Positions 10,274 to 46,461 of a stretch of DNA of 64,000 bases are shown in pieces. The stretch comes from Rhizobium sp. 32-5/1. Lineage in GTDB: Bacteria; Pseudomonadota; Alphaproteobacteria; Rhizobiales; Rhizobiaceae. Numbering within the stretch: position 1 is the first letter of the stretch; every line of letters starts with the position of its first letter. The notes under the pieces are model-generated. The model was not told the DNA's origin. It did no database searches and worked only from the letters and a program-made list of their open reading frames with translations. The stretch spans positions 1,674,001-1,738,000 of the forward strand of contig NZ_CP120638.1 in NCBI RefSeq assembly GCF_029537235.1, given 5' to 3'. The translations under genes were made by a program, and so were the position numbers.

Positions 10274-10349
10274 GCCGCTTTAGCTCAGGTGGTAGAGCAC
10301 ATCATTCGTAATGATGGGGTCAGAGGTTCGAGTCCTCTAAGCGGCACCA
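10274..10349 (+). tRNA. tRNA-Thr (anticodon CGT)
   Basis: The 76-base cloverleaf is complete. The acceptor stem GCCGCTT (10274-10280) pairs with AAGCGGC (10339-10345), and the anticodon stem ATCAT/ATGAT encloses TTCGTAA with anticodon CGT. The T-arm is AGAGG-TTCGAGT-CCTCT, and CCA is encoded. It reads ACG codons. Its 3' half is the integration site of the element that follows. Confidence 0.97.
10302..10349 (+). repeat. attL: 48-bp direct repeat in the tRNA-Thr 3' half
   Basis: The 48 bases from the anticodon stem to CCA are repeated exactly at 34884-34931 and, from base 10305 on, with one mismatch at 46417-46461. Integration kept the tRNA intact, as is usual for tyrosine integrases using tRNA 3' ends. 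Confidence 0.92.
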
Positions 10350-10805
10350 TTTAACTTCTTGATAAAAATAGACTTAATGCTTTAGGCCAGATCGCGAAAG
10401 CATTTCCGTTCAAGCTGGGTCGCCACCGGGTCGCCACAGAGCGGAATTCTTTGGGTGAATTAGGCCCTTTTGACTGTTAGCCGCCAATTAAATTGCCTTA
10501 ACTCGCTGAAAAATCGCACTCCTCAATTTCTTAATAAATTCTTCCCGCGAGCGGCGCTCCTTTGTGTGCTTTTAGGGCCTGACATAATTCATGAGGTTAG
10601 CGCTTATCGCGCGCGCACGCGTATCTGTTGCGGAATGGGTCCACTGAGGTCGCCAAGCACTGGATAAAGAAAGCGATTGATAGGCGTCGGTTTAGGTTTT
10701 CTGAGGTTTGGGGATCTGCTGTGAGGGAAGGCAGCAAATCTCACTACTTTGCTGTTTTCTAGTATGCAGCACTTCGGCTTGAACCCACCTCTAGACCTCG
10801 ACGGA
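10350..10805. other. Left-end non-coding region of the element
   Basis: No gene is convincing in these 456 bases. They hold the putative integrase arm site at 10418-10437 and an alternating CG tract near 10608-10620. Confidence 0.6.
10418..10437 (+). promoter_or_regulatory. Putative left arm-type integrase site
   Basis: Two near-identical decamers, GGTCGCCACC and GGGTCGCCAC, stand in tandem 69 bases inside the left att core. The identical 20 bases, in the same orientation, lie at 34749-34768 inside the right end. Direct-repeat arm sites flanking the cores are expected for integrases with a DUF4102 arm-binding domain, which this element encodes. Confidence 0.6.
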
Positions 10806-11195
10806 CTAAGCCTCGTCGCTCCCCTTCAGAAGTGATCGAAGATTTTCGGCGATCAAAGCCGCATGCCGGGGCGGCAGCACATCAAGCCCTGCCTCGATAC
10901 GGCCAACGATGTCCTTACACAAAGCCTTAGAGATTTGAGCGAATTCTTTCGCATTCTTCATCTCCCAATCAGGATGAGAGAACATCTTCGAAAGGTCTAG
11001 GCTGCTGTCATGTGTCACCAATTCGTGACAGCCGTTTTGCAGGAGCAACTGGTCACGGCCGTGCGGAGCAGGCTTAGTGTTAATCCAGACGAAGTAATCA
11101 GGCGCCACACAAACGCACAGCGCATATTTCTCTTTCGGAGGCTTCGAAAGGACGGTATTGACGATGTAGATGTGCCCGAGCTTACAAGACGCCAT
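10806..11195 (-). CDS. Probable toxin partner of the Panacea antitoxin
   Basis: The 129-residue protein starts MASCKLGHIYIVNTVLSKPP from ATG 11195, inside the last codons of the Panacea gene (14-base overlap). I do not recognise the family. The N-terminal half (GHIYIV, YALCVCVAP, YFVWINTKP) predicts a small beta-barrel reminiscent of PemK/MazF-type folds, which is inference only. The C-terminal half is helical (KNAKEFAQISKALCKDIVGRIEAG). The order antitoxin then toxin with overlapping ends is what PanA-type systems usually show. Confidence 0.6.
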   Translation of the reverse strand: MASCKLGHIYIVNTVLSKPPKEKYALCVCVAPDYFVWINTKPAPHGRDQLLLQNGCHELVTHDSSLDLSKMFSHPDWEMKNAKEFAQISKALCKDIVGRIEAGLDVLPPRHAALIAENLRSLLKGSDEA

Positions 11196-11718
11196 AGGAA
11201 GCAAATTGCTCCGCTTCCTCAAAGATTTCAGGCGATACCCCATCAAGCATATCCTCAAAGCGCATTGGCGCATTAAGGGCAGCCTTTTTCCAGGCTAGAT
11301 GCTCGTGCGTCTCGTCAGAAATCTGGCCGAACGAACGCCCCCTGCAATATTCGAAAGCTCGATCAAGGCATTCCAAATCTGTCTTGCTGAAGTAGCTTAG
11401 ATCAGGGGAGCGATGAGCCTTGTAGGTAGGGTGCTTTTCGCTATCGCCATGGGATAGGGCCCCCACAACTACTTCCCGTTCCGGCTCCGGAAGCTCCTCT
11501 TTGACCGCGTTATAGGCGTAAGAGGGTACCGGTCCGTTCTCCATAGCGATATATCGATCGCCGGTGATCGGCCGCCCGAAAGTGCGCAGGTGGTCGAGAT
11601 CAGCGTAGTATAGCGTCTTTAGGGCGTGGAAACGCCCAACCTCTCCGTACCGGGACACGATATAGAGCAGGGCCTCGATTGTTTTCTCTTTGTCGACACT
11701 AAATCTCATGGACTTCAT
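11182..11718 (-). CDS. Panacea-domain (SocA/DUF4065-like) antitoxin
   Basis: From ATG 11718 the protein has 178 residues. Panacea-domain landmarks are clear: RFHALKTLYYADLDHLRTFG, then PITGDRYIAMENGPVPSYAY, and the C-terminal DLECLDRAFEYCRGRSFGQI and HEHLAWKKA. Panacea proteins are versatile antitoxins paired with many unrelated toxins. The downstream overlapping gene is therefore the likely toxin. The in-frame sequence before 11718 is not protein-like. The pair lies at the tRNA-proximal end of the element, a common place for stabilisation or defence cargo. Confidence 0.8.
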   Translation of the reverse strand: MKSMRFSVDKEKTIEALLYIVSRYGEVGRFHALKTLYYADLDHLRTFGRPITGDRYIAMENGPVPSYAYNAVKEELPEPEREVVVGALSHGDSEKHPTYKAHRSPDLSYFSKTDLECLDRAFEYCRGRSFGQISDETHEHLAWKKAALNAPMRFEDMLDGVSPEIFEEAEQFASYGVL

Positions 11719-11788
11719 ATAAGCCTGAGTTTCGTTAAAGAAAAGATTTATAGCATGGTGGGTGCTATCCGCCGACCTGTTTTGGTTG

Positions 11789-12832
11789 TTAACGCACCAG
11801 TAAGTCGAAATGGCCAAGACCTCGCATTCGCGCTTTGGCTGGTAGTGGCAGTGGCAAGCCGTGAGTGTCGATTGTATATTGGTAGTCCACCGAAAAAGTG
11901 CCCTGGAAGCGCTCACCGTGGACGAATCCGACAGCTTCAGTATAGCAAATGCACTTGAACGAAACAGGAAGGACCATAGCCGGGCGGCCGAAGCCTGCCG
12001 GTATTGACATCCCCTGCGGTGCATTGACTTCAACAATGTTGGTAAACAGCGTTGGCACTTCGACGTCTGTTGAAACGAATTCGTCGCTTGTCTTAAATAC
12101 GAAAGTGCCGAGCCCAACCGCTTGGTTGATGGCGTCAAAAGTGCTGTGAGCCGATTTCAACAGCACTTGCGCCATGATAAGCCCGTCGCCTGTCCGTTCC
12201 ACACCGATGCCAGAGACGGTTTGCCGCATACCATCCATAGTGGATAGATCCCCAGGCAAATCTTCAGAAATGTGTTCGTCATAGACGATATCGCCCCCTA
12301 TGATTTCCAGCTTTGAGCGCAAGCCCTCTGCTATGGGCTTTCCGAGGTCGATTGGGGACGAAAACTTCTTTTGAAGCGCGGTAGGGCTAAGGAAAGACTT
12401 CAGTATTGGCAGCACGTCTCCTGTCTCGGCTATTGCCCATTCAAAGAGCGGCTTGTCAGGATGGCTGATCTGAAACACCTGTCCCTGGCGCCCATTTATC
12501 AGCATATAATAAAAAGCCCCAACGTCTGGATGTGCTGAGTAACTGTGCGCCTGCTGGGCATCATCGATGCTCAACGGCTGGGACGGCGGTTTTGCTTCGA
12601 CAGTCCAGCGAGCATAAGGGGTGTATTCGCAAATATAATCGGCCCGACCTTGTAGTTCAGCGTCCGTCGCCTTTTTCCGACCAAGGAACATCTTGCTGTA
12701 ACGCAGTGTCCTCTCGGTTAAAATATTTGCTTGCGTTCCCTGCCTGAACCCGAGCGCGTGCAGTAGCGGACGAATTATAATCTCCCGAACGTCCGTTTCA
12801 TTCATGGAGATGAGATCAAAATGGCCAAACAT
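11789..12832 (-). CDS. Lone HsdR_N-type nuclease domain protein
   Basis: The 347-residue protein matches the N-terminal domain of type I restriction endonucleases (PD-(D/E)XK fold). It begins with the typical NETDVREIIIRPLLHALGF. It continues with GRADYICEY, RWTVEAKPPSQPL (the ExK end of the catalytic motif) and DAQQAHSYSAHPDVGAFYYM. There is no helicase domain and no hsdM or hsdS nearby, so it is not a complete restriction system. The C-terminal 180 residues are of unknown fold. ATG 12832 or 12805 are possible starts. It lies upstream of the Panacea pair on the same strand and could be part of a small defence cargo. Confidence 0.7.
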   Translation of the reverse strand: MFGHFDLISMNETDVREIIIRPLLHALGFRQGTQANILTERTLRYSKMFLGRKKATDAELQGRADYICEYTPYARWTVEAKPPSQPLSIDDAQQAHSYSAHPDVGAFYYMLINGRQGQVFQISHPDKPLFEWAIAETGDVLPILKSFLSPTALQKKFSSPIDLGKPIAEGLRSKLEIIGGDIVYDEHISEDLPGDLSTMDGMRQTVSGIGVERTGDGLIMAQVLLKSAHSTFDAINQAVGLGTFVFKTSDEFVSTDVEVPTLFTNIVEVNAPQGMSIPAGFGRPAMVLPVSFKCICYTEAVGFVHGERFQGTFSVDYQYTIDTHGLPLPLPAKARMRGLGHFDLLVR

Positions 12833-13126: not shown

Positions 13127-13426
13127 TTAATCGGTCAGTCGATAATAAGGGTCTTCTCGATAGGTTGTGCCGACGTAGCAGTTTGTCCCAAAGCATCTTG
13201 GGCTTCTGCGGTCCCTCGCTAGATAAAAGACGTGCTGTGGCGCTTTCCGATGGTACCCGGCCCTCGGTGCAACATAATAATCGCGGCGCTCTCCAACGAT
13301 CTGCTCTCGATAAGCCGTAGCTGGGGCGACGTCATAGTATCTGTATCCGTCATCGTAGACGCAGCCACTTAACGTTGCCACGGACGATCCAAGCACACTC
13401 AGAACGATGCACATCTTACGGCTCAT
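13127..13426 (-). CDS. Small Tyr-rich lipoprotein
   Basis: The 99-residue product has a signal sequence and lipobox (MCIVLSVLGSSVATLSGC), so it is likely lipidated at Cys22 of MSRKMC.... The mature part is rich in Tyr and Arg (YDDGYRYYDVAPATAYREQ). I do not recognise a family. ATG 13426 is chosen because the signal peptide starts there; the frame is open from 13468. Confidence 0.65.
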   Translation of the reverse strand: MSRKMCIVLSVLGSSVATLSGCVYDDGYRYYDVAPATAYREQIVGERRDYYVAPRAGYHRKAPQHVFYLARDRRSPRCFGTNCYVGTTYREDPYYRLTD

Positions 13427-13684
13427 GCTTGCCTCCAGATTGGATATAATGGCGCGATGTTGAAACAATGCAAGCCCTGGTCGGCTCAGAGAACCACCAG
13501 TGATTAGGCCAGGGAAGTCTCAAAATAGGCGAGAGCCGCCCGCTACGCTGGTGGGTCGCGCGTGCGCGCGCGTATCTGTCCGATAATGCCGGCGGGGCAA
13601 CTTGCTGCAGGCTTATGATGCACGAAAAACCTTCGCGGGATGGCTACCGCAAAAAGCGGCACCGTTCACTGGCTTCGATCTGAT

Positions 13685-16800: not shown

Positions 16801-16831
16801 CGATGAATTCGGTCGCTCGGTGGAGGAGTCG

Positions 16832-17047
16832 ATGGCAGAGAAAGTGAAATCCGATAGGCTTCTGAAGCTCAAGGACGTTAAAGACCGGACCGCTTTGGGG
16901 AGTTCTTCTATTTACCGCCGTATAGCGGCTGGGACATTTCCCAGGCCTCGCCAACTGAGTCCAGCGTGCGTCCGATGGATGGAATCGGAAATCGACTACT
17001 GGATAACAACGCTGCCACCGACTGGTGCGCCAGAGCCCCTGCCTTGA
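16832..17047 (+). CDS. AlpA-family transcriptional regulator
   Basis: The 71-residue protein has the AlpA/phage_AlpA pattern: DRLLKLKDVKDRTALGSSSI, YRRIAAGTFPRPRQLSP and WMESEIDYWI. These winged-helix-like proteins activate integrase or excision genes in cryptic prophages. ATG 16832 follows GGAGGAG. It probably forms a unit with the XRE gene 31 bases upstream. Confidence 0.8.
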   Translation: MAEKVKSDRLLKLKDVKDRTALGSSSIYRRIAAGTFPRPRQLSPACVRWMESEIDYWITTLPPTGAPEPLP

Positions 17048-20515: not shown

Positions 20516-20725
20516 TTAGCGTACAGATCTCGCTTTCAGAGCCCTAGCGATCTGCTGCACGCTCTCTTGGGTTACTACGCTGCGCGCTTTGTCCTTGCCG
20601 TCCTTATCTTGCGCAACCGACATGAAAGAAAGTTTAGTCCCGTTCGGAACGGGTATAATGTCGGACACCTTTGAGGCGTCTACCAGGATCTGTTCACCTC
20701 TGGTATTGGTTAAGAATAGCCACAT
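20516..20725 (-). CDS. Small hypothetical protein (FlbD-like size and shape)
   Basis: The 69-residue protein MWLFLTNTRGEQILVDASKV, SDIIPVPNGTKLSFMSV... resembles small beta-rich proteins of the FlbD type, but similarity is weak. It is chosen over the longer frame because the extra N-terminus crosses a terminator hairpin at 20845-20877. Confidence 0.5.
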   Translation of the reverse strand: MWLFLTNTRGEQILVDASKVSDIIPVPNGTKLSFMSVAQDKDGKDKARSVVTQESVQQIARALKARSVR

Positions 20726-20844
20726 ACTCAAAACTCCACTTTGGGCCAGTAATAGATTTATTATTACGTGCACTCTGCTTTGCGTCAACACTTTCTCAAC
20801 TATGTGGTTAAAGTGCGTAGCGAGTGTCACAACCAAAAACAAAA

Positions 20845-23141: not shown

Positions 23142-23444
23142 TCACTTTGACCTTGTCTTGCCATCGACTGCGGCTAGGAGGGCAGCTACATGCTCCCGCT
23201 CGATCGCAGCCATTTCCGGATCCCGCCTCGGCGTCGTCTTCGCTCCATCCGGGCGGCAGATCAGCCTAATGATGAGAAGGTCCTTGCTGTCAGGACTGGT
23301 ATCCAGTCCCATCTCAGCCGCCTGACGATAGATCTCCTCCTCTTCCCCCTGGTTTCCCACGATCCGAACTATTCGCGGGTTTGCCTTCGCTGGAGCAACA
23401 CTCGCTTCCAGCTTCGTCAGACGTGTGTGCAGGAGATTGGTCAT
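23142..23444 (-). CDS. Hypothetical phage protein
   Basis: The 100-residue protein (MTNLLHTRLTKLEASVAPAK, EMAAIEREHVAALLAAVDG) starts in a coiled-coil-like segment. Its start overlaps the stop of the DUF5681 gene by 4 bases (ATGA), so the two are coupled. Function unknown. Confidence 0.6.
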   Translation of the reverse strand: MTNLLHTRLTKLEASVAPAKANPRIVRIVGNQGEEEEIYRQAAEMGLDTSPDSKDLLIIRLICRPDGAKTTPRRDPEMAAIEREHVAALLAAVDGKTRSK

Positions 23445-29427: not shown

Positions 29428-29441
29428 CACCATATCCCTCG

Positions 29442-32161: not shown

Positions 32162-32374
32162 TCACGCTGCTACAGAGGTGGAGCGGCGGCGCTTGGACGA
32201 GAGCCAAGCATCGAGGTCGGCCGGATCGTAGACGACTGTCTTGCCCAACTTGATGTAGGCGGGGCCACCACCAGTCAGGCGAAGTTTGTTCAGCGTCGAA
32301 GCGGAAGCTCCGGTGTAAATGGCGGCGGCGGCGGTCCGCATTTTTGGGCGTTCGGCAGTAAGATTGGTGGTCAT
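32162..32374 (-). CDS. Excisionase-like helix-turn-helix protein
   Basis: The 70-residue protein matches the MerR-like HTH_17 / excisionase pattern: AAAIYTGASASTLNKLRLTG, GGPAYIKLGKTVVYDPADLD, AWLSSKRR. It lies in the integrase-proximal module and is the best candidate for Xis. Confidence 0.7.
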   Translation of the reverse strand: MTTNLTAERPKMRTAAAAIYTGASASTLNKLRLTGGGPAYIKLGKTVVYDPADLDAWLSSKRRRSTSVAA

Positions 32375-33437: not shown

Positions 33438-34732
33438 CTAAACGTTGCCCTTTTTGATCAGGACAACGTTTTCCTTTTTCTCAATGCGCCCGCCCATGGC
33501 GTCCATTATCCGAGAGCCGATAGCGTTTGATGCAAATCTCACCGGATCAGCGTCGAGATGGGCGTACCGTTGCGTCGTAGATGCTTGAGTGTGACCAAGA
33601 AGCTTTCCGATGATAGGCAGCCCCATCCCGCCGCCGGCACCAAAGCTTGCAAAGTTATGCCGAAGGTCGTGCAAACGCACGTCAGTCAGGTTGGCGTGCC
33701 GGCGAACAGCCTCCCAAGGGCGCTTCAGGTCGGCGCGCGGCTTTTCCTCATCTGTTCCGGCACTATCGCTGGCGATAACAAATTTGCCGATCCGGGTAAG
33801 ATTCGCCAGCAACTCCATTGCGGGAGCATTGAGAACGATGGTCTTCTTTCCTGTCTTGGATTTGGGCAGCAGTAGCAGCCCGCGCTCCAGGTCAACATGC
33901 GACCATTCAAGATGAAGGATTTCACGCAGTCGGGCGCCCGTGAATATGAGGAGGCGAAGTGCTGCAGCGGCGTGTTCCCCAATGACGGTCTCGCGGTTCT
34001 CCTTGGGAACGTGTTTTGCTTTCTTGTTTGGATCGATATGCCACGGCAGGCCCGTGGTTTCTGCCAACCGGATCGATGTGCCAAGCCTCTCAAGTTCAGC
34101 AGTCGAAAGATAGCGCTCGACGCCCTCCTCATCGTACTTCTCAATGTCAGTGGTCGGCCCCTGCCCTCTAGGAATTAGGCCCATTTTCATGCCGAAACTG
34201 AACATCGAGCTGATGATTGCCGTTGTCTTGTTCGCCATGGAGGGGTGGCCCGCATATCATAATGGAGCTTGGCAACGTTCGCGGCCTTCACGTCCACGGC
34301 TTTCATCTTTCCCAATCGCGGTATGATGTGACGCGTGATGATTTCCTCGTATGCTGAAGCTGTGTTTGCTGAGCGTTTGGCCTTGACGTGATGTTTGATG
34401 AAATCTTTTGAAAGCTCTTCAACAGTGAGCGCCTCTCGCGCTCTGGCTTTATCTGCTTGCGGGTCTTCGCCAACCTTCACCCTCGAACGCAGAGTATCTG
34501 CTCGCTTGCGCGCCTCGTCAGGGGTGAACTCAGTGGCGCTGCCGATCGTCACGCGCTTCTTGGCTTCAGAACGCCCACCGGCTCCAGGCCTGTATTCGAA
34601 GACATAGGTCTTTTGCCCGGTTGGATAGACGCGAAGGCCGAAGCCCTTCACGTCAGTATCGAACAAGGTGTAACGCGCAGCTCGTGGCTCTGCCCCGTCA
34701 ACCGTTCGTTTTGTGATTTTCAAGCCTACCAT
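33438..34732 (-). pseudogene. int: Tyrosine integrase (DUF4102 arm domain), frameshifted
   Basis: From ATG 34732 (MVGLKITKRTVDGAEP) an arm-binding DUF4102 domain (GFGLRVYPTGQKTYVFEYRP) and a SAM-like core-binding domain are read. The frame breaks after MRATPP near 34238-34245. The catalytic domain continues in another frame: TGARLREILHLEW (Arg), RLHDLRHNFASFG (His-x-x-Arg), LLGHTQASTTQRYAHL (His, Tyr). All catalytic residues are present. One inserted base gives a normal 431-residue integrase. It reads away from the right att site, 152 bases from it. Confidence 0.85.
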
Positions 34733-34748
34733 CTCAGTCCTAAAGCCA

Positions 34749-34768
34749 GGTCGCCACCGGGTCGCCAC
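34749..34768 (+). promoter_or_regulatory. Putative right arm-type integrase site
   Basis: It is identical to 10418-10437: tandem decamers GGTCGCCACC and GGGTCGCCAC in the same orientation. It lies between the integrase start (34732) and the att core (34884), so binding here could also control integrase expression. Confidence 0.6.
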
Positions 34769-34883: not shown

Positions 34884-34931
34884 TCATTCGTAATGATGGG
34901 GTCAGAGGTTCGAGTCCTCTAAGCGGCACCA
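34884..34931 (+). repeat. Middle att site (tRNA-Thr 3' half copy)
   Basis: This is an exact 48-bp copy of 10302-10349 without the 5' half of a tRNA, so it is not a tRNA gene. It closes the prophage element and opens the next segment. Confidence 0.92.
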
Positions 34932-35338
34932 ATCTTTTCAACAAGTTACAATCTTGTTTTCATGCCGCATTAGCCGGCCGGCCGGCCCGGGGTAACAAAC
35001 GGCGCTATATTCGATGTTCAGGGCTCGGTGAGACCGAGATCGCGCTTCACACCGGGTGCGAGGCGCAGCATCCCATTGACTCTCGCAAATTTTTTCGCAC
35101 GCGGGAGGTCATCTCCGGCATAATAGAACATGAGATTCTGCCATAGCCAGCCTTTGACGCCTCGTTCGACAGGCGGGCCGCCGTTCTATAACCCAATGGA
35201 GGCCGTCCGCGCTTATGAACTTGTTATGGAAACTGGTCTTCAGCTTGGCTGCCTCCTTGCCGCCGCACACCTCGGCATGGATGAGCATAGGGTGTTTTGC
35301 CCTGCCCGTCGTCAGCAAGGCAACCAAGTGGTCTCCAA

Positions 35339-37661
35339 TCATCCGTTTGCGTTGAGCGTTTCTTTGTGCTTTGCCAACGCCTGCTGGGCTGCGGCCGCGA
35401 TGTTGCCATTGCTTTCCCCCTGCGACCTGCACCGTCGGGAACGCAGGCTTGATGTTGTTGTCGTGAAACGCCTGGTTGATCCGCATCAGGGCGCGTCGCT
35501 TGAGCGTGAATTGTTCACCGGGAATCGTGGTGAATTTCATCCGGAGGATCAGGCCTGAATCGCCCATGCTGTCGATGCCCTGCATCTTAAGCGGTTCGAT
35601 GGTGATCGGCGCAAGCTCCGGATCGGCGAGCAGTTCCTGCCCGATTTTCTTGATGATCTTGCGCGCCTTGTCGACGTCGGTATCGTAGCCGACCGTTACC
35701 GTCAGCTTCTCGACCACCCAGTCGCGGCTGAGATTCTGGACGGCGCCGAGCTCGCTGAACGGAACGATGTAGATCGCGCCGCGATGATGGCGAAGCTTCA
35801 CCGATCTCAGGCTGAACGATTCGACAGTGCCCTTGTAGGACCCGCTCGATATATATTCGCCGACCCGGAAGGCGTCGTCGAGCAGGTAGAACATGCCGCT
35901 GATGATGTCCTTGACGACCGTCTGCGCGCCAAAACCGATGGCGACGCCGACCACGCCGGCGCCTGCGATAAGAGGCGCGATCTCGACGCCCAGCGCTGAC
36001 AAAGCCATCATGATGGCGACTGCCACGAACAAAATCATCAGCACATTCTTGAGAATGGGTAGAAGCGTCCGGATGCGGGCACGCCGTCGTTCGCGTTCGC
36101 TGCCATGCGCATGCGCGAGTTCGGTTTCGCCAAGCTTCCGGTCGATCAGCACTTTCACGATATTCCAGACAAGGTCGATCACCAGCAGAATAATGCCGGC
36201 GCTCAAGGCCCCGCGCATCAATCGTCGCGCCGCCGAATCCTGCTCGGTAATTCCGGTCAGATTGATCTCGAGCACGTCAGCCAGGAAAAGGATTGCCCCG
36301 ACGATGAGCGCAGCGCGTATGCCGCGTTCGACCATGACCGAGATGACGCCCGGTTTGCTCTGGACCACGACGACGGCTTCAGTATCGGGATTGGCGATGA
36401 CAGATCCATCCGGCAGAGTATCTGAGCCGGGCTGAACCTCAATTGCTGTAGGGAGGGCGGTGTCGGGTTGAGTACCGACATTGTAAGGTGAGTCTGGGTC
36501 GGCACCGGTTTCGACAATATTGTTTCTGAGAAGATTGTCGACAGAAGCCCGTGTCAGGGCGATTGCGCCGGGGAGCGCTGCCGCGACAACGGCAATCCAG
36601 AACGGCTTCATCATTCCGACAACCCAGAGAAGCCAGAGCGAAACGAAGTAGACCGACCAAAGCCAGTTGCGTGCACGCATGCCGATACGGCCAAAGCGGG
36701 TCGCCTCACCAACGGATGGCATGGCTTCCGGCCGATTCCAGATCGCTTCGATACCGAGAATGAGAAGAACGATCCCAAGCGCATAGGCCGCGACGTGCAG
36801 GGACGGTTCGGCAAAGCCAAGCGCCCGGAGAAGGTAAACGGTGATTGACCCGAATGCGTACCAGCCAACGATATAGCCAAGTCGTTTAGTCCAATGGGCG
36901 GCCGACTGATCGCTGACGGGGACAACGCGGAAGCGTTCCGCATGGGCAAAACCACCCGATCCGGGCGGTGCAAGGAGAAAATCGAAAGAGGCCCTTGCGA
37001 GCCGGAAGATCACCACCGCGAAAAGGTAGCCGACGATGATCTCGCGGATCAGCGGTGGCCATTCGAATGCCAGGAAAAAGCCGATACTGCCAAGCGCGAA
37101 GGCCAATATGGAGCAGATTGCCCAAAGCAGTCTGACGGAAATCGCGATGAGCTTCTCGCGCACGGTCAATACCCGCAGGGAGGCAATCCAGGCGCGCCAG
37201 CCCGCGCTCAACCACCAGAAGCACCATTGGGCAGCCAGACCGGCAGCGACGAATGCGATCACGAAGTAGACTGGGCGTATCCCGATGCTGGTGTCGATTT
37301 CGTTTTGCAGGACCGCCGCGGCTTTGCCGAATTCTGCCGGGAATGCCTGCATGCCTTCAACAAGGAGCGCGACATGTGCCCGAAAGGTTGTCGCGAAACT
37401 CGCATAGGAGACCGGTTTGTCCACCACGACTGGGGGTGTTGTCGTTTCCTTGGCCGATTTCGCATTCAGCAGCCATGCACGAACTTGCGGGTCTTCGACC
37501 AATTCCAGGAAGCGCTGTACCTTTTCCTCCAGGGCAGGATCAGTGGCCGTGGTCTGGGCCGACGCCGGTGATGAATAGACATGAAGTCCAAACGCCAGAA
37601 CGAGCCCGCAAAGAACTATACGAATGGCGGCGGATAGCCGGATCGAAAGCGACATCTTCAT
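35339..37661 (-). pseudogene. MscS-family mechanosensitive channel, C-terminus shifted
   Basis: From ATG 37661 (coupled by ATGA to the gene before) the protein has a signal peptide (VLCGLVLAFGLHVYSSPASA), many membrane helices and the MscS core (APLIAGAGVVGVAIGFGAQT, DIISGMFYLLDDAFRVGEYI). Its cytoplasmic beta domain follows. After FPTVQVAG an extra base in the CCCCC run 35416-35420 sends translation into a long unrelated tail ending at 35109. Removing it gives ESNGNIAAAAQQALAKHKET and a stop at 35339 (773 residues). It would release solutes at low external osmolarity. The channel core is intact in either frame. Confidence 0.82.
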
Positions 37662-38974
37662 TGTTTCCTGCAGTTTACAGACGAGGCGGCCTGGCATTTT
37701 GGCAGTGGTTTTGACCGGGACATGCCGGCTGGCCCTAGCGCGTCGAGCTGGCTCGAGAAATTGTCACGGGTATTCGCATCGACGATGGCGACCGGGGCCG
37801 CGAGTAACAGCCCTGCAGCGTTTCCTGCCGCCGCCGCAGTGCCGGTTGTCGCCGCGAGTATGGTGTCCCCAAGCCCGATACGGTTGTCAGTGAGGGTCTG
37901 GCCGTCCGAGATCCGCGCGCCAATGAGACGAACGATCTCCGGCGATTCGGCAAATTTTCCATGATTGAGCCTGTCGCCCGCCTTCACTTTGGTCAGATCG
38001 ATGACCTTGATGTCGGCATCCGCCAGTTCCTGCTTGTAGGGCGCCTGTTCGGGGTCGATGGAACCGAGACGGGCTACATCGCCCCAGACGCGGCGAGAGA
38101 CCGCCAGCGCCCGATCGTCGCGCGAGACGAAAAGCGTGAACTGCGGGTGCGGTGTGCCCATATCAACGATCTGCGAACGGAAGACGTCGACATCGACATC
38201 GGGAGCCGCCAGCATCACGTTCTTGAATTTGGCCGGCAGCCCACCATTGCGGATCGCCATCTGCCGCAGCGCTTCCAGCGTCAGCCAGTTGCCCATTGAA
38301 TGAGCGAGGATCGAGACTTCCTTCACCTCCGCGTCCTTGGCCAGGTACTGGAACAGGTTTTCCAGCGCATTGCGGGTGTAATTGGTGCTCTCGCGGTCAT
38401 AACCATAGGCAAGCAGGCTGCCGCGCGATGGCCATGTCACGAGGATCGGTGCGCTGCGGACACCGGAGTCCTGCACGATTTGGGCAAAACGGTAGACGCT
38501 GTCCTCAAACCTGGTGTTAAACCCGTGGATGAAAACGAGCGCGCTACCATCGGGCGTCTTTCTGACAGACGTGTTAAGCCAGGCCTTGGCCGCATCTATG
38601 TCGATCATGTCGGCCTTGAGGGTCGCAAAATCCGTGGCCGGGTTTGGCGGAAGTTTCTTCGGCCAGGATACTTCGCCCACCTTGCGTGCGCCGTCCGGCG
38701 GCACAGAGACCGTGATGTCGGCGAAATTCGGCGCCCGCGCCCGCTCGCCCGTAAACATCTCGCCGCGACTCACCGATGGGCTTCGTGTCGTTGCGATCAG
38801 CATTTCGACCCTGTGCGATTGCGGTGCCGTATCGGCAACGGGTGTCAAAACACCCTTGGGATGTCCGCCGCAGCCGGAAAGCAATAGGCCGGAAACAACA
38901 AGGATCGCGCAGAAAAGCCCCCGGTTGAGGACTTTTTCGGGTCTCTGGTACGCCCTTTGATTGTTCACGTGCAC
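37658..38974 (-). CDS. DUF900 alpha/beta hydrolase lipoprotein
   Basis: The 438-residue protein has a lipoprotein signal (LFCAILVVSGLLLSGCGG) and the DUF900 hydrolase core: SALVFIHGFNTRFEDSVYRF, then VSILAHSMGNWLTLEAL with the nucleophile Ser in AHSMG. PDVDVDVFRSQ is the usual following block. The substrate is unknown; relatives are secreted esterases or lipases. It overlaps the MscS gene by 4 bases, so the two are one operon. Confidence 0.85.
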   Translation of the reverse strand: MHVNNQRAYQRPEKVLNRGLFCAILVVSGLLLSGCGGHPKGVLTPVADTAPQSHRVEMLIATTRSPSVSRGEMFTGERARAPNFADITVSVPPDGARKVGEVSWPKKLPPNPATDFATLKADMIDIDAAKAWLNTSVRKTPDGSALVFIHGFNTRFEDSVYRFAQIVQDSGVRSAPILVTWPSRGSLLAYGYDRESTNYTRNALENLFQYLAKDAEVKEVSILAHSMGNWLTLEALRQMAIRNGGLPAKFKNVMLAAPDVDVDVFRSQIVDMGTPHPQFTLFVSRDDRALAVSRRVWGDVARLGSIDPEQAPYKQELADADIKVIDLTKVKAGDRLNHGKFAESPEIVRLIGARISDGQTLTDNRIGLGDTILAATTGTAAAAGNAAGLLLAAPVAIVDANTRDNFSSQLDALGPAGMSRSKPLPKCQAASSVNCRKQ

Positions 38975-39259
38975 TGTCCTGTCGCCGCGGTTTTCCGAGG
39001 ACGGAATTTCGAAACTCCGCTCCCGTGACTATTGGAGGCATACGACCCGGAAGCCGGTCGTGCGCGCGCTGTTGATGCAATACCAGTCGGACCTGATCTG
39101 CGGTCGCCGAGCACAAGCCGCGCCAGCACGACGCTGCTGTTGACCAGAGACAATCCGGACGTCATGGCTTTCCTATCGTTCCATTCACACAGTCGTCCGC
39201 ACTATGCAGGTGGCGCCGGAGAACGGGAGTATCTTACTGTAACCTACGGGCTTGATCGT

Positions 39260-41052
39260 TTATGGAAGTTCGGTGGCATCCGCGAAGGCACGCTCATCGA
39301 CCCGGATTGTCATTCCGGCTTTGCGCAGACCCGCAACGAGGCGATTGAGGTCCGTGATACGCATATTCCGCGATGTCATCTCCGAAATGAAGTTTGGCAG
39401 AAAATCCGGTCTCATTGTTTCGAACACCGCAGCAGCCCGGCGTGCATCCGCCATCATTCCCGCGTCGGCGTAGATGATCGCGGCGACGGCATGAAACAGC
39501 GGAAACTTCTGCATGTCTGACCGCTTGATCTGCAACACCGCATTCTCCGTATCGCCCAGCATGTAGGATGCCAGCCCACGCGTGCCGCGGTAGAATCCGC
39601 CACCGCCGGGGTTAAGGATGATGGCCTGGTCCAGCAGTTCGGCGCCACGCTGCCATTGTCCGGCGATGGCGATCCTGGTCCCGAACTCGCCCATCAGTTC
39701 GGTATCGTTGGGGTTCATGGCCAGCGCCTGCTCGCCGACATGAATGGCTTCGGCCAGTTGCTTGTCGAAGAACAGTGCCGTCATCAGCGCCTGCTGTGCA
39801 CGCGTGTTGCCGGGTTCCACCTGGACCGCCCGGCGCGCCGCCTGAAGTGCCCGCTCTATCGGCGGCGGACCTTCGGTCTTCGGGTTGAATTTGTACCGCT
39901 CCTCGTCGAGGTAAATCATCGATAGCATGGCGCGCGCGGTCGCATAGGCCGGATAGCGCTCAACGGCCTTTTCCAGGCAGCCTCTCACGACCGCATGTGC
40001 TCCAACACTCAGCTGCATGCGGTAATCGTAGAAATCCAGCGTGCATTGATATGCGCCCAGATCGTCCGGGGCGCGCGCGCGACATCCGCCTGCGCAATAA
40101 TGCCATAGGGCTGCGCCACCGATGCTGCGACCCGGTTCGCCACATCGGTCTGGATGGTGAACAGGTCGCCTGAACGAAGATCGTGGTCATAGTTCTGCGA
40201 CCAGAGGATGGCGCCGTCCCGGGTGTCCACGAGCCTTACGCTGGCACGCATCCTATCGCCAGCAACCCGGACACCGCCCGCCAGAAGGTACCCTGCGCCA
40301 AACCGTTCGCGAACGTCTGCGACATCGACCTCGGGCAGCAGAGTTCTCGACGTTTCGCGGCCGAAAACCTTGATCTCCTTGAAGCGCGGCAACGTCGTCA
40401 GCAATTCTTCGGTGAGGCCGATCGTATAAAGATGGGCTTGCGGGCCGTCGCCAAGGTTTGCGAACGGCGCGATGAGCAACGTTGGTTTATCCGGCTGCAG
40501 CTTGCTGGTCTGATTGACCCCTGTCACCGCGTCGTAAGGCAAGGTCCAGTAGGTGGCAAACGTGACAAAGACCGCCAGTCCGGCAAGGACTGCCAGTCTG
40601 GGCGCCTTCCTCGACCACCAGGACACTTTCGTCGGAGATCCGGACGGGGAAATCGGGGCCTTGTCGGAGGTTTCGCGATGGACCGCCCCTGGACAATGCC
40701 ATGTGAACACGGGGACGTAGCCGCCCTTCGGAATGTCGATGCGGATCGGGTCGGTCTGGCCGGCGACCAGGTAATATCGTTCGATCGCACGTCTCAGCCG
40801 TCCCGCTTCGATCCGGACAACCGGATCATCCTGACTAAAATGTTCGTCCCGCCGAAAGATCTCCAGTGCGATGGAATATCCCTTGAGCCGACTTGCGCGG
40901 CCGGCAAGAGCTTCCTCCACTATATATGTCAGAAAAGCGGCCCCGCGGCCGACGGTCGGAAACTCGGGACTGGTGACGATACGCTCGAGCTGCGCACGAA
41001 TTTCGTCCGCGTTGGGCGGCTGTCGTGTTCCGACGGCGTTCAGATCCTGCAC
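39260..41052 (-). pseudogene. TolB-like/TPR regulatory protein, frameshifted
   Basis: From GTG 41052 (AGGGG six bases upstream) the N-terminal region has the domain found in rhizobial adenylate-cyclase-like regulators (QLERIVTSPEFPTVGRGAAF, ...DDPVVRIEAGRLRRAIERYY). One membrane helix follows (LAVLAGLAVFVTFATYW), then a TolB-like part (LLIAPFANLGDG). TPR repeats follow in another frame (ARRAVQVEPGNTRAQQALMT). A base missing at the GGGG run 40068-40071 explains the break; 597 residues result. It is divergent from the efflux operon and may control it. No cyclase catalytic domain is present. Confidence 0.75.
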
Positions 41053-41206
41053 GGTCTTCCCCTCCCCGACGAGCCACCGCACCTACCACCCGTATGTTAC
41101 CGTAATATACTCAACAAACGTCCCGCCTTACTTGAAACTTCTTTCTTGAAGCGCACGCGGCAGTGGTGAATTTTTGTATTCCTTGAACAGAAAGAAATCA
41201 AGAAAG

Positions 41207-41470
41207 ATGGATGAGGACGCCCTTGCGGCCTGCCGCCGTTTTCCGACCCGCGCCGGGGCGATTATCGAGCTTTCGGCCCGGGATGAAGGGTTTCGGGATC
41301 TCTGCGCGGACTTTGCCATAGCCGAAACCGAACTGCACAAGTGGCGTGGCTCACACCACGTGCTGCGCGATCAAAGAATTTCGGAATATGCGGTTCTCGT
41401 CGAGGCGCTTGCCGGAGAAATCGTATCGACGCTGGAGAACGCATCCGTCGTGCCATTTCCGCGGCGCTGA
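41207..41470 (+). CDS. Small hypothetical protein
   Basis: The 87-residue protein (MDEDALAACRRFPTRAGAII, LHKWRGSHHVLRDQRISEYA) begins the rightward unit that leads to the efflux genes. ATG 41174 in frame is possible but adds a basic stretch. No function recognised. Confidence 0.5.
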   Translation: MDEDALAACRRFPTRAGAIIELSARDEGFRDLCADFAIAETELHKWRGSHHVLRDQRISEYAVLVEALAGEIVSTLENASVVPFPRR

Positions 41471-41630
41471 TCCGCTCTGGAGTGTTGCTCGGGACGCGTA
41501 TGTTACCGTTGCCTACATTGCGCCGGATCGTTCGACAGTTGACAAAAAGCCTTGGGCAGATGGGCCGATCCGGCCGCCGTCTCCATCCACACCGCCCCCG
41601 ATGAGGTCGGTCCAACGAACGGGAGTGATC

Positions 41631-42152
41631 ATGTCTGTCAACACCGAGAACACCATCGAGCCGGTAGCGGCCACCTGGCGCTTCAAGCTGGGGATTGCCC
41701 TTGTATGCCTTGCTATCGGCATGTGGCTCTGCGTGCCGCTTGCGGCCTGGGCCGGCGTTCCGAGCACACGGATCGCCGCAATCACCGGCGTCATCTTCAT
41801 CGTCAACAAGATCCTTCTGCTTCTCGTGATAGCCGTAATGGGCAAATCCGGATTCCAGCAGCTCAAGGGGAAAATCTTCGGTGTCTTCAAGTTGGCACCC
41901 GATACCAGCGTCGGCAGTGCGCGTTACAAGCTCGGTCTCGTCATGTTCTGCCTGCCGTTGATCACGAGCTGGCTTGAACCATATATCGATGCTGTTGCTC
42001 CGGGCCTGCGACCCAACATCTGGCAGCTGCAGCTGCTGGGCGACGTGATGTTCCTGGCGAGCTTTTTCGTGCTCGGCGGTAATTTCTGGGAAAAGATACG
42101 GTCCCTGTTCATCCGCACGAGCCGCGTCATCTATACGCCAACGGCAGAGTGA
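41631..42152 (+). CDS. Four-helix membrane protein (transporter suffix domain type)
   Basis: The 173-residue protein has four membrane segments (LGIALVCLAIGMWLCVPLAA, IAAITGVIFIVNKILLLLVI, LGLVMFCLPLITSWL, LLGDVMFLASFFVLGG). Such proteins precede HlyD/DUF2955 efflux genes and are often called transporter suffix domain proteins. It starts 12 bases upstream of the HlyD gene. Confidence 0.75.
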   Translation: MSVNTENTIEPVAATWRFKLGIALVCLAIGMWLCVPLAAWAGVPSTRIAAITGVIFIVNKILLLLVIAVMGKSGFQQLKGKIFGVFKLAPDTSVGSARYKLGLVMFCLPLITSWLEPYIDAVAPGLRPNIWQLQLLGDVMFLASFFVLGGNFWEKIRSLFIRTSRVIYTPTAE

Positions 42153-42164
42153 AGGAGTGCAGTT

Positions 42165-43274
42165 GTGGCTTCCGATGAAACTCTGGCTGGACCGACGCCC
42201 CAGGAGACTGCCCCCAGCGCCAATCCGCTGCGAAGGGTCGCATTGATTGTCGTCCTGCTGGGGCTGATACTCTTTGTCCTTTCCGTCTTCATGGAACGAC
42301 GGACGCCTTCGTCGTCGCAGGCCCAGGTCCAGGCCTATGTCGTCGGCATCGCGCCGGAGGTGACGGGGCGGGTCGTTGAGGTGAACGTGACCGACAACGC
42401 GGCAGTCGAACCGGATCAGGTTCTCTTTCGCATCGACCCGGCCCGCTACCAGATCGCTGTTACGGAAGCCGAAGCGGCTCTTGCTCGTGTCGGCCAGTCG
42501 ATCGGGGCTTCGACGGCACAGGTCGATGCCGTTCAGGCAAGGCTCGTTCAAGCGCAAGCCAGCCGCGACAATGCCGGAGAACAACTGGGCCGCGCGACCG
42601 AGCTGACCAAACGCGGCGTTTACGCCAATACAAAACTGGACGAAGCACAGCTGGCATTCGATCAGGCCCAGGCGGCTGTCACCGCGGCCGAAGCCGACCT
42701 TGTCAGTGCGCAGGCCGATCTTGGCCCGGCGGGGAACGACAATCCGGAGCTCAAGCAGGCCCTTGCTACCCTGGAACGTGCCCAGCTCGATCTGCTGCGA
42801 ACAACGGCGCGCGCGCCTTCGATAGGCGTCGTTACCAATCTGCAACTTTCCATCGGCAAGGTGGTCAGTGCCGGACAATCCGCCATGACCTTCATTGACG
42901 TCGGAACGGTGTGGATCGCGGCTGCTTTCAAGGAGAACAGTCTCGAAAGGGTTGCGATCGGCAATCGTGCAGAGGTCCTGTTCGATGCGCTTCCGGGGCA
43001 GATTTTCGGAGCGACGGTCGAAAGCGTCGGCCTCGGCGTATCGCAGGGAAGCACGGATCCGAGCACCGGCCTTCCGACGATCCGAAACGATAGTGGCTGG
43101 GTGCAGGAAGCGCAGCGCTTTCCGGTCCGGCTCGTCATGGATGACGGAAGACCAAAGGGCGTCCGTTACGGTTCGCAGGCGACAGTGGTGATCTACACCG
43201 GAGACCACCCGGTCACCAACGCCTGGGGATCGCTCTGGATCCGGATCATGTCTGTGCTGACCTATGTCAATTGA
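42165..43274 (+). CDS. HlyD/EmrA-type membrane fusion protein
   Basis: The 369-residue protein from GTG 42165 (GAAGGAG upstream) has one N-terminal membrane helix (VALIVVLLGLILFVLSVFME), a biotinyl-lipoyl-like hybrid domain (VTGRVVEVNVTDNAAVEPDQ), a long coiled coil and a beta-barrel (TTARAPSIGVVTNLQLSIGK). It would span the periplasm for an inner-membrane exporter. The stop overlaps the DUF2955 start. Confidence 0.9.
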   Translation: MASDETLAGPTPQETAPSANPLRRVALIVVLLGLILFVLSVFMERRTPSSSQAQVQAYVVGIAPEVTGRVVEVNVTDNAAVEPDQVLFRIDPARYQIAVTEAEAALARVGQSIGASTAQVDAVQARLVQAQASRDNAGEQLGRATELTKRGVYANTKLDEAQLAFDQAQAAVTAAEADLVSAQADLGPAGNDNPELKQALATLERAQLDLLRTTARAPSIGVVTNLQLSIGKVVSAGQSAMTFIDVGTVWIAAAFKENSLERVAIGNRAEVLFDALPGQIFGATVESVGLGVSQGSTDPSTGLPTIRNDSGWVQEAQRFPVRLVMDDGRPKGVRYGSQATVVIYTGDHPVTNAWGSLWIRIMSVLTYVN

Positions 43275-44283
43275 CAGCGCCCTAGCCGCGCAACGACGCA
43301 AGGGACTGCGGGTGGCGCTCGCGGTTTCCCTCGGCTTCACCGCCTCGGTTGCATCGGGCGCGCTCGTTCCGTTTCTGGGACCGCTGTTTGCGGCGCAATT
43401 CCTTTTGTCGAGTACCGCGCCAATGCCTTTTGCCAAAACCCTCGGCATGGCGATCCTCATCTTCGTGGTCGGCACGGTCATGTCTATCCTGACATCGTGG
43501 TTCGGCGAACACCCGGCCAGCTTTCTACTTCTGCTTGGCCTGTTCTACTTCTCCTGCTTTGTCGCCCAGTCGAGCGGCAAGGGCGGTGCCGCTATCTCCC
43601 TTGTGCTGATCGTGGGCGTCATCGTGCCGCTGCTCGGTATTCTCAACAAGGAACTAGCCGCCTCTATCCTGTCGATCCTGCTCCTGGGCGTGATCAGCGG
43701 TGCGGTGCTGATGTGGCTTGCCCACGCGGTCTTTCCTGAACCCGCCATCGTCGATGAGCCAGAGCAGCAGGCCGTTATCTGTCCTCCCGATTACGGGCGG
43801 GCGCTGGCGAATACCGGAATCCTGCTCGCCATTATGGCGATCTGCCTGACCAGCGATAACCTGACATCCGCGGCCGTCATTCCGATAACGGTGATAACAC
43901 TTCTGACGCAGCTTGATGCTGCTGCCACCGGAAGGGCAGCGTTCGGCCTTGCCATCGTGAACCTCTTCGGCGGGATTATTGCCTCCGTCGCCTATGAGGC
44001 GCTCAATCTTCGACCCAACCTGCTCTCCCTGTTTCTCATTACGCTTGTCGTCTGCCTTTTCATTGGCGGACGGGCGGCGGCACGGTCACCGGACGCACGG
44101 GTGTATGCGGGCGCACTGACGATATTCCTGATCCTGTTCGGGCTCGGCGTCTCGCCTTTGCCCGGGAGCGCTGCGGAATCGTTTTCGACGCGCATCCTCT
44201 ATGTCGGTGCGGCAATCCTCTACACGCTTTTGGCAACCGCACTGCTCTGGCGGCCGCGTGTTGCCAAAGTTGAAGTGGCGTAA
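43264..44283 (+). CDS. DUF2955 inner-membrane exporter
   Basis: The 339-residue protein has about ten membrane helices and the DUF2955 layout related to FUSC/AaeB aromatic-acid exporters (VALAVSLGFTASVASGALVP, FLGPLFAAQFLLSS). It overlaps the HlyD gene by 11 bases. With it, it should form an efflux pump for organic acids or similar compounds; the substrate cannot be read from sequence. Confidence 0.85.
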   Translation: MSIDSALAAQRRKGLRVALAVSLGFTASVASGALVPFLGPLFAAQFLLSSTAPMPFAKTLGMAILIFVVGTVMSILTSWFGEHPASFLLLLGLFYFSCFVAQSSGKGGAAISLVLIVGVIVPLLGILNKELAASILSILLLGVISGAVLMWLAHAVFPEPAIVDEPEQQAVICPPDYGRALANTGILLAIMAICLTSDNLTSAAVIPITVITLLTQLDAAATGRAAFGLAIVNLFGGIIASVAYEALNLRPNLLSLFLITLVVCLFIGGRAAARSPDARVYAGALTIFLILFGLGVSPLPGSAAESFSTRILYVGAAILYTLLATALLWRPRVAKVEVA

Positions 44284-44302
44284 CAGGCAGACAGGAGTTT
44301 CC

Positions 44303-44784
44303 ATGCGTTGGAGAACAGGTGGCATTGTCTACGCGCTCCTTCTTGCCGGGCAGACGATTGCTGCGTCAGCATTGTTTTGGATCGTGTTTCCGGTTTTCCA
44401 CGAGATCGTCACGAATCTGGGCGAGCGGCAGGAGTTACCGCCGTCGCAACAGCTTTCAGCACTTGGCAGCGCAGCGTTCCTGCACCTGTGCTACTGGACT
44501 AGGTTGACGTGGGTTCCTGTCGTCGCTCCGTTCCACAGCGTGTTCCTTGGACATGTTTGCGCTTTCGCGAGCCGCGTCAGTTTCTTCTTCGGCGGGGCGC
44601 TGTTCTCGGTCCTCTTTTTCCGTCACCTGCCCGCGCTGGACGTCATGCCCCCTTGTCGCGGACGGCTTTCTCGACTGTCGAGGTCGTCGCCGTACTGTTT
44701 GGTCTCTACTGCTATTCGCGTGAACTCGATCGGTTGGCGATGGCGATCGAGGAGCCAATTCCTTGCACAACGGCCAAGCAATGA
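44303..44784 (+). pseudogene. Small membrane protein of the efflux operon, frameshifted
   Basis: The frame MRWRTGGIVYALLLAGQTIA ... GGALFSVLFFRHLPALDVM breaks at the CCCCC run 44648-44652. The continuation LSRTAFSTVEVVAVLFGLYC, YSRELDRLAMAIEE is in the next frame and ends at 44784. Adding one base gives a 160-residue protein with four membrane helices. It starts 19 bases after the DUF2955 gene. Confidence 0.7.
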
Positions 44785-44968
44785 CCGCTCCGTTCGATAA
44801 ATCTCGAATACCCTCGTATGAGGTAAAGGCTTTATCCTTCAAAATATGCACAGAAATATCAGCAAGACCCTCGCAGCCTGGACGCCACCAAAGCTCGTGC
44901 AGTCCGGCGTCGGGTGCGAAGCAAAGATGGGACGTCCGCCGATCGGCTGTGGGCTACAAATGGGAAGC

Positions 44969-45325
44969 ATGGCGATGATAGAAGGGTTGTATCAGGCGAT
45001 GTTTTACGCCGATCGTCAGCATAATGGCTTACCTGAAGAATGGTTTGGGCGCGGCGTCATGCACATTCGAGATGGAAAAATAATCGGAGGTGACAGCGAC
45101 TTCTACTATATCGGTCATTATATTCTTGATGGCACCCGGTTCGACGCTTCATTAAAAGTGACCCCGCACACCAAGCAGCCACGTTCTGGATCACCCTTCG
45201 GTTCAAAGGGTTCCGACCTTTTCGTCAGGGGCACCGCCGATACCGTCGAAATTCGGTGCGGCGGAACCATCTGCGACTCGCCCGGCGGCCGTATTCACAT
45301 AGGGCTCACCTGGCTTGCACAGTAG
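44969..45325 (+). CDS. GrlR-like regulatory protein
   Basis: The 118-residue protein MAMIEGLYQAMFYADRQHNG ... GRGVMHIRDGKIIGGDSDFY, YIGHYILDGTRFDASLKVTP resembles the small beta-barrel GrlR family. GrlR is a negative regulator of a virulence activator in enterobacteria; in rhizobia such proteins are uncharacterised. ATG 44969 follows GGGAAG. The in-frame extension to 44846 is not protein-like. Confidence 0.65.
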   Translation: MAMIEGLYQAMFYADRQHNGLPEEWFGRGVMHIRDGKIIGGDSDFYYIGHYILDGTRFDASLKVTPHTKQPRSGSPFGSKGSDLFVRGTADTVEIRCGGTICDSPGGRIHIGLTWLAQ

Positions 45326-45528
45326 CGCAACGCAACTACAGCTCGAGTCCAGGCTGAGAAGGGTGAGCAGTTTGGTGCTGCATTTATCCTCTTGATGCGC
45401 TTCTAAGCAATCTCGACGCCAATCTAAGCAGCGGCAATAGTCATCACCCAGAACTCAGCAAGCTTTATCGCTCCGGATGAACTCCGCATAGATAGTCCGA
45501 GGGCAATGACGGAATCGGTTTGGATTTT

Positions 45529-46180
45529 TCATCGAGCCATCCTCCGCTTCGCCTTGTGTTCGACGACGACAGGTTTGCGCGCTTTGCCGACGGCCGGCGT
45601 CACCGTTCTCCATCCCGGTTCTTCGGGATGGCTCCTCTGGATGCTCACCGGCAGGGTGAGGGAAGCCCGGAACCTTGCGTTCCAATCGCCGTATTCGAGG
45701 ATTTGCGCGGTGCCGATGTCTCCGGCGACGTAGGCCAGTTTTCGCTGGACCTCGGCGTTCGTGTTGCACCGGAAGAGGATGAACCGGTGCCGTTTCTCGT
45801 TGTAAACATCCAAGAGCGGACCTTCGAAGCAGAAATCACCGTCAGGCCTGTAGGCATTCCAAGCAGCCCCGGCCATCACGTATTCGGTGATGACGGCTTC
45901 CAGGTCGCGGGTGCACTCCTTCGGCGGCAAGGGGTCCACCTTTTTCCAGCGAGCGGGCCTCCTCAAGCAGATCCTCCGAAAGACTGAATCCGCCGCGGCC
46001 CCGTGACGCCTGCAACAGTAGTTTGAGAGCGAACTCTTCCGCAGTGCGCGCAGGGAAGCCGGCGATGCGATCTGCAAGCAATGCTGCGATATCAGCATGT
46101 GATTTCCAGAGGTCGAAAAGATCGCGAATGGAGGAAGGTGATATAGCGCCACTGCCGGCGGTCGGAATCTGGTTTTCCAT
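45529..46180 (-). pseudogene. Hypothetical protein, frameshifted
   Basis: From ATG 46180 the protein reads SIRDLFDLWKSHADIAALLA, DRIAGFPARTAEEFALKLLL. After EARSLEK the frame is shifted by one extra base in the TTTTT run 45941-45945. The continuation is VDPLPPKECTRDLEAVITEY ... LLDVYNEKRHRFILFRCN. Corrected length is 216 residues. No family recognised. It is the last gene before the third att copy. Confidence 0.6.
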
Positions 46181-46416
46181 TGTTTGGCCGTGATTGAGAG
46201 GGTTGTTCGGTGTTGCCGCTCAGTGATGCCGTTCGGAATACCGGCGTCTTCATGCAGATGCTGCAAATCAGCTGTGGCTTTAACGGAGCGCGCGATACAG
46301 GTCTTTCCGGCGCCTTCCATGCCGACAACAAAATGCTATATTTTTCAATGGAGACAAGGCATTAAACGGAGAAAAATGATTGGCGGTGATATGTCGAGTT
46401 GAGAGGAAGCACATAC

Positions 46417-46461
46417 TTCGTAATGATGGGGTCAGAGGTTCGAGTCCTCTAACCGGCACCA
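46417..46461 (+). repeat. Third att copy (tRNA-Thr 3' half, one mismatch)
   Basis: 45 bases match 10305-10349 with one change (G to C at 46453, in the acceptor stem). It lacks a 5' tRNA half. Core-type genes resume immediately after it. Confidence 0.88.

Follow-up and report, generated by a model that had tools for sequence, protein, structure and literature searches.

Two att-flanked segments in tandem behind tRNA-Thr(CGT)

The genome of Rhizobium sp. 32-5/1 (5.62 Mb in three contigs; stated completeness 87.47%) carries two tandem segments, here called A and B, behind a tRNA-Thr(CGT) gene whose 3′ end is repeated at the distal end of each. We analysed them within a stretch of 64,000 nucleotides, positions 1,674,001–1,738,000 of contig 1, referred to as the window and used for all coordinates below. 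The integration target (10274–10349, + strand) was located by ARAGORN, which finds no other tRNA in the window, and by BLAST of the genome against itself; its 3′ 48 bp (10302–10349) form the attachment (att) core. An exact 48-bp copy found by ungapped scanning (copy 2, 34884–34931, +) marks the junction between A and B, and a 45-bp BLAST match with one mismatch (copy 3, 46417–46461, +), which extends to 54 bp at 94% identity, closes B. Segment A (10350–34883), bounded by the tRNA and copy 2, is a prophage remnant, and segment B (34932–46416) is flanked by att copies and has no recombinase among the 12 open reading frames (ORFs) scanned with Pfam. Beyond copy 3 lies an older layer (46462–48473) in which family scans identified a glutathione S-transferase (GST) gene (46484–47194, −) and a polyhydroxybutyrate (PHB) depolymerase (PhaZ) gene (47221–48471, +), followed by the chromosomal flank (48474–55676), which stands closely behind the tRNA in relatives with an empty site.

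An ungapped scan over the 48 core positions on both strands of the window gave scores of 48, 48 and 45 at the three sites and 27 for the next best, which excludes chance matching. The three tRNA 3′ copies described in a first-pass annotation of this DNA are thereby confirmed, and the circle sizes it predicted (24.6, 11.5 and 36.1 kb) agree with the att coordinates. The mismatch in copy 3 is a G-to-C change in the 3′ acceptor half. All 25 congeneric genomes of our comparison set carry this tRNA and none has the change, so that it belongs to copy 3 itself and descent from another tRNA allele is ruled out; the most diverged of the copies, copy 3 fits the old, decaying distal att site that it had been taken for. 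A decayed fourth copy inside A, near 13 kb, was considered and rejected, as the best match there (27/48 at 12798) equals the best non-att matches in two relatives (27 in both G001 and G015) and is thus at chance level.

The T-arm AGAGG/CCTCT is common to all three window copies and to four of the 25 relatives (G023, G010, G022, G024); 19 relatives have GCAGG/CCTGC and two (G018, G005) a third type. Three T-arm versions of one tRNA, each with paired changes, therefore occur within one genus, and they could have been swapped by integrating elements that brought their own 3′ half.

Empty and occupied sites in related genomes

Occupancy was measured in the 25 relatives by how far the chromosomal flank (window 48528 onward) lies from the tRNA. 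This distance is at most 1.4 kb in 15 of them (G002, G003, G004, G005, G007, G008, G012, G013, G014, G017, G019, G020, G021, G022 and G024). Relative to G013, where window position 48474 comes about 45 bp after the tRNA, the interval 10350–48473 (about 38 kb) is inserted. The distance is 4.5 kb in G023 and 15–35 kb in G016, G010, G025, G006 and G001; the site of G011 is occupied, with its flank and an att copy on another contig. Neither G015 nor G018 has a flank within 75 kb of the tRNA, and the contig of G009 ends 2.3 kb after it.

The stretches fetched after the tRNA were then used to call A, B and the GST/PhaZ layer by blastn. Segment B is at the site in none of the 25 congeners, with G009 (2.3 kb only) and G011 (contig break) seen in part. 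Element-free relatives holding the genes of B had been named beforehand as the observation that would speak for a resident segment; with B in 0 of 25 and near-empty sites in 15, the results favour insertion and support the stepwise insertion at the tRNA that the first-pass annotation had proposed. Of segment A, blastn found at these sites only homologs of one small gene, treated below, and 128 bp (32178–32305) in G011. The same annotation had taken the GST gene at 46484 for the flank of an empty site, which was not borne out: the flank begins at 48474, and the GST/PhaZ layer stands at the site in G023 only (83.9% identity). The GST gene was accordingly rejected as the original flank, and because it and the PHB depolymerase gene are accessory too, the insert reaches past copy 3 to about 48473. 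In place of A and B, G023 has 2.4 kb with a type II-A retron (L145:5686–7502, directly after tRNA-Thr; reverse transcriptase 2.3e-107, partner 1.3e-46).

Distal att copies were found in four of the 25 relatives: at +21.3 kb in G001 (48/48 against its own tRNA), +22.6 kb in G006 (47/48, own tRNA), +14.9 kb in G016 (46/48, own tRNA), and in G011 (42/48, scored against the tRNA of the window). In G001 a further 13.8 kb with no second att copy separates the distal copy from the flank, making this locus (G001:C4:267905–303000; L156, L157, L303) a second layered site. No att copy was detected in G010 (16.5 kb from tRNA to flank) or G025 (22.5 kb), where scores reach at most 25/48, or in G015 and G018, where they reach at most 27/48.

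Segment A: a prophage remnant and its integrase

The right end of segment A encodes a tyrosine recombinase in two frames, with the catalytic part at 33438–34238 (−; PF00589, 1.8e-22) and the N-terminal part, comprising arm-binding and SAM-like domains, at 34187–34768 (−; PF13356, 8.3e-18; PF14659, 1.8e-6). An integrase thus adjoins an att site, 115 bp from copy 2, as in a prophage, though it reads in two frames; the frame break (near 34235) lies near a short G run and is possibly a sequencing error. The catalytic part has relatives in 28 of 297 genomes of the family, our own included (E up to 1e-60), and the loci of the 27 others were examined for att copies.

Pattern search placed the repeat GTCGCCACCGGGTCGCCAC at exactly two sites in the window: the left end of A (10419–10437, +), 69 bp after the tRNA, and its right end (34750–34768, +), 115 bp before copy 2. 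The integrase relative in G011 (54% identical) lies next to a tRNA-Thr 3′ copy (45 bp, 91%) and has the repeat too: the unit GTCGCCAC occurs 67 and 78 bp after the tRNA in G011 and 69 and 80 bp after it in A, and a further unit precedes the att copy of G011 at an offset equal to that in A. Nine other relatives tested lack the unit after the tRNA. The G011 locus, with an integrase beside a tRNA-Thr 3′ copy and repeats spaced nearly as in A, shows that this type of integrase uses this tRNA. Among the 27 loci, an exact repeat also adjoins tRNA-Arg in G316, and one more has a weaker repeat match. The repeats are candidate arm sites of the integrase; by the same pattern search, repeat and unit are absent from both ends of B.

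For gene content, 26 ORFs of A were scanned with Pfam and 28 with PHROGs. Moving left from the integrase, the right half encodes a second excisionase-like small protein of the HTH_17 type (32162–32374, −; PF12728, 3.8e-6; phrog_66, 6.7e-7), an endonuclease (31681–31902; phrog_2340), a DnaD-like phage replication protein (31015–31551, −; phrog_25711, 2.6e-48; phrog_1701, 8.6e-20) and an RNase H (30288–30848, −; PF00075, 1.3e-36; phrog_531, 3.4e-50). They are followed by a phage ejection protein, annotated as “released from the phage upon host infection” (28381–29433, −; phrog_2534, 3.5e-17), with relatives in 11 viral contigs. Two adjacent ORFs (25353–27224 and 27323–28381, −) occupy by position the place of a single 806-aa ORF in the related viral contig L249, without matching it at E 1e-6; by ORF order alone they are probably one split gene. 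Next come a cell-wall-hydrolase-like phage protein (23925–25343, −; PF07486 at 4.4e-4, below the curated Pfam cut-off, with tblastn matches to viral contigs L250 and L254) and a DUF5681 protein (23441–23881, −; PF18932, 1.7e-13; phrog_9747, 6.2e-9) that also weakly matches the terminase small subunit family phrog_4102 (0.0065).

The scans of these ORFs gave no large terminase, portal or capsid gene. By sequence and order, L249 appears to have terminase-, portal- and capsid-like ORFs upstream of its ejection gene, and none of the ORFs in A with 60 or more codons matches them. We term A a remnant because these genes were not found. The description of the first interval as phage-like with an integrase holds as regards the integrase and the phage genes; it applies mainly to the right half, and the integrase lies in two frames.

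The left half holds an ORF with a Panacea (SocA-like antitoxin) domain (11182–12138, −; PF13274, 1.8e-19), overlapped by an ORF without family match (10806–11273), an AlpA-type regulator or excisionase (16820–17047, +; PF05930, 4.8e-16; PHROG excisionase families), a GDSL lipase and a DUF4238 protein. A small gene at 13127–13468 (−), without family match, encodes by eye a putative lipoprotein. The two excisionase-like genes suggest that A may itself be composite. Within A, 296 bp (20517–20812) are 94% identical to positions 153034–153329 of contig C2 of the same genome. PADLOC, run on 10 ORFs from A and B, recognised no defence system and returned one weak match (0.0036) to a DUF4238 model.

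Segment B and the copy of its gene block on contig C2

The 12 ORFs of B scanned with Pfam, which do not include every small ORF, contain no recombinase, relaxase or conjugation family, in line with the earlier description of this interval as cargo only. From the left they comprise an MscS-type mechanosensitive channel gene (35361–37697, −), whose end is set by comparison with the C2 copy, as the ORF runs on to 35109 owing to a 2-nt difference from that copy at 35418; a DUF900 alpha/beta hydrolase gene (37658–38974, −; PF05990, 6.4e-97); and a tetratricopeptide repeat (TPR) ORF with its upstream ORF (39260–41082, −), which take the place of the “adenylate cyclase” gene of Pararhizobium qamdonense plasmid p3. 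On the opposite strand follow genes for a transporter-suffix protein (41346–42152, +; NF033684, 6.1e-22), an HlyD-type membrane-fusion protein (42165–43274, +; PF16576, 1.1e-17) and a DUF2955 protein (43264–44283, +; PF11168, 5.9e-8). A 739-aa ORF (41262–43481) was judged spurious, as the HlyD and DUF2955 genes run on the strand opposite to it and its best match is interrupted by stops in 10 of 11 matching relatives. The right end of B (45328–46416) consists of overlapping ORFs in two frames without family or plasmid match and is perhaps a decayed gene.

Frame breaks near short G or C runs affect the integrase (about 34235), the MscS end (35418), a small gene near 44650 and a chromosomal gene near 6180, and may be sequencing errors; the break near 44650 is identical in B and the C2 copy. 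The cyclase-like gene (39260–41082) is also split into two ORFs, with the break near 40010 and without a G or C run.

The block of genes in B (MscS, DUF900, HlyD and others) recurs once more in the genome, a copy that the first-pass annotation had missed, on contig C2 (1,086,621 bases), which is likely a separate replicon. Plasmid p3 of P. qamdonense has this block in its annotation, and relatives carry it on various contigs, among them the plasmid of G025; one flank of the C2 copy matches the plasmid copy of G025 at 84%. B and C2 match over 35361–38883 and 42219–44801. In place of 38884–42218, C2 holds only about 500 bp, and the cyclase region (39260–41082) is absent from it. Within the matching spans, two tracts are identical: 3,235 bp (tract 1, 35419–38653) and 2,178 bp (tract 2, 42579–44756). 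All mismatches, 35 in one match and 16 in the other, fall outside the tracts, at edges where B and C2 are 73–90% identical; in the tracts themselves, G023 is 88% identical to either copy. Long identical tracts with diverged edges point to recent gene conversion between B and the C2 copy, and their ends are visible here because the copies differ by 10–27% at the edges. A simple duplication of the C2 copy was rejected, as edges and middle diverge.

The edges also bear on direction. G023 sides with B at 45 of the 71 edge sites that differ between B and C2 and with C2 at 11, and matches neither copy at the other 15; edge by edge, B:C2 agreement is 7:2, 21:2, 13:4 and 4:3. This agreement leads us to favour B as the donor, a judgement by which copying from B to C2 is somewhat more likely than the reverse. 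That the C2 copy stands at the same place as the copy of G023 was not established: a 98-bp match between their surroundings is a dispersed repeat (about 98 bp; G000:C2:714597, 774553 and 792958; present in G023 as well), and other flank matches between the two reach 68–77%.

Proposed history of the locus and rival explanations

We propose that the locus arose by site-specific stepwise accretion at tRNA-Thr(CGT), followed by conversion between B and C2, and put the probability of this account at about 0.75. The GST/PhaZ layer would have been inserted first, before the split from G023. B would then have arrived as an att-flanked element, since deprived of its recombinase, carrying the block that also exists, incompletely, on C2. 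A, a prophage with a tyrosine integrase, would have entered the rebuilt tRNA 3′ end later; such an integration would explain why A lies between the tRNA and B. A would subsequently have lost its head and packaging genes, and with B in place homologous recombination may have copied stretches of 3.2 kb and 2.2 kb or more from one copy of the block to the other, more likely outward from B. The order of these events and the former recombinase of B are inferred.

Several observations count against this account. Homologs of the small gene at 13127–13468 occur in G002, G006, G007, G011, G014 and G022, with a shorter one in G024, and stand either right after the tRNA or just beyond a distal att copy; in G006 and G011 the order is att copy, small gene, flank, placing the gene outside the element, whereas in our genome it sits within A at 2.8 kb from the tRNA, a position that a simple insertion leaves unexplained. 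In the closest relative, G023, the site holds a retron and lacks an att copy, so that this genome does not display an intermediate step, and among the 25 congeners, none of them conspecific, neither a strain with only A nor one with only B was encountered. The former recombinase of B was not found, and the ends of B (34932–35360 and 45328–46416) match no plasmid record. As to the direction of conversion, the edges near 35400 and 42200 agree more with C2 in two relatives (6:3 and 12:5 in G025; 6:3 and 12:6 in G016).

That A and B arrived as one 36-kb composite integration, from the tRNA to copy 3, with the middle att a relic of accretion in a donor, seems unlikely to us. The geometry would fit, copy 2 lying between A and B and copy 3 closing the pair, and the base composition of B is near that of the flanks, so that it gives no arrival date. 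Joint movement by the integrase of A should, however, need its arm-type repeat at the outer end of B, where there is none, and copy 3 is more diverged than copy 2, which suggests a greater age. The mobilisation of B by the integrase of A, in trans or jointly, that the first-pass annotation had envisaged likewise finds no support: the ends of B lack the repeat, the integrase is in two frames, and A has no head genes.

It is quite improbable that B was never mobile, being either a resident block that homologous or illegitimate recombination placed between att copies or an assembly error: B does copy genes found elsewhere in the genome, with zero differences over 5.4 kb in two tracts, its similarity to relatives starts near the MscS end (35361; 35348 in G012), and in G013 similarity stops at the 159-aa gene (45327) as if cleanly excised, but exact and near-exact att copies bound it, its ends add about 430 bp and 1.1 kb of DNA from outside the gene block, and its edges and middle are so unlike C2 that it is neither a simple recent duplication nor easily an assembly error.

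Within the stepwise account, a more speculative reading, which we regard as rather doubtful, makes B a second home for the block of the other replicon, one that keeps the cyclase region lost there and overwrites the rest of that copy by recombination. If true, a tRNA att site would be a route by which an operon is moved and renewed across replicons.

Comparison with known systems

Phage-related sequences and genomic islands at tRNA genes occur in Sinorhizobium meliloti according to an excerpt of PMC11476347, and the likeness to our locus extends to the family (Rhizobiaceae), the tRNA targets, the incomplete prophages and islands, and tRNA-Thr among the hot spots. The hot spot in that excerpt is tRNA-Thr(GGU) (PMC11476347); ours is tRNA-Thr(CGT), and it has three att copies. 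The tRNA-Thr(CGT) gene is a Rhizobiaceae hotspot in which the order of the layers can be read and for which relatives offer clean empty sites.

Stepwise build-up in which a prophage joins an element that has already decayed is a known process. A three-step accretion model, in which an element integrates, decays to a cis-mobilizable element (CIME) and is joined by a second integration, is set out in an excerpt of PMC5704250, which adds that tandem partners can be prophages, generally decayed. As far as that excerpt goes, the CIME accretion related to ICESt1 in Streptococcus thermophilus resembles our locus in its tandem elements with a shared inner att, in one member with att sites only and no recombinase, and in a later element inserted at the target gene. 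B has the features of a CIME in its att sites at both ends (copy 2 exact over 48 bp, copy 3 with one mismatch) and in the loss of integration and transfer genes (12 ORFs by Pfam, not every small ORF). Unlike the CIME case, the integrase-bearing member here is a defective prophage instead of a conjugative element, the 12 scanned ORFs of B include neither a relaxase nor a conjugation gene, and B ends without the terminal repeat of its neighbour. Mobilisation in cis is therefore not indicated, and the lack of the arm-type repeat at both ends of B speaks against A as its helper.

The identical tracts show that an att-flanked segment can exchange sequence with a copy of its genes elsewhere in the genome, so that similarity between island cargo and host genes need not date the arrival of the island. 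A literature search on gene conversion and concerted evolution between Rhizobium replicons found no paper in the collection searched. Interlocus gene conversion between repeated genes has reportedly affected the nif gene copies of Rhizobium etli. Our case resembles bacterial interlocus conversion in that two copies within one genome share long identical tracts that break off abruptly into diverged edges; it differs in that one partner is an island segment flanked by att copies and the other a block on a different contig.

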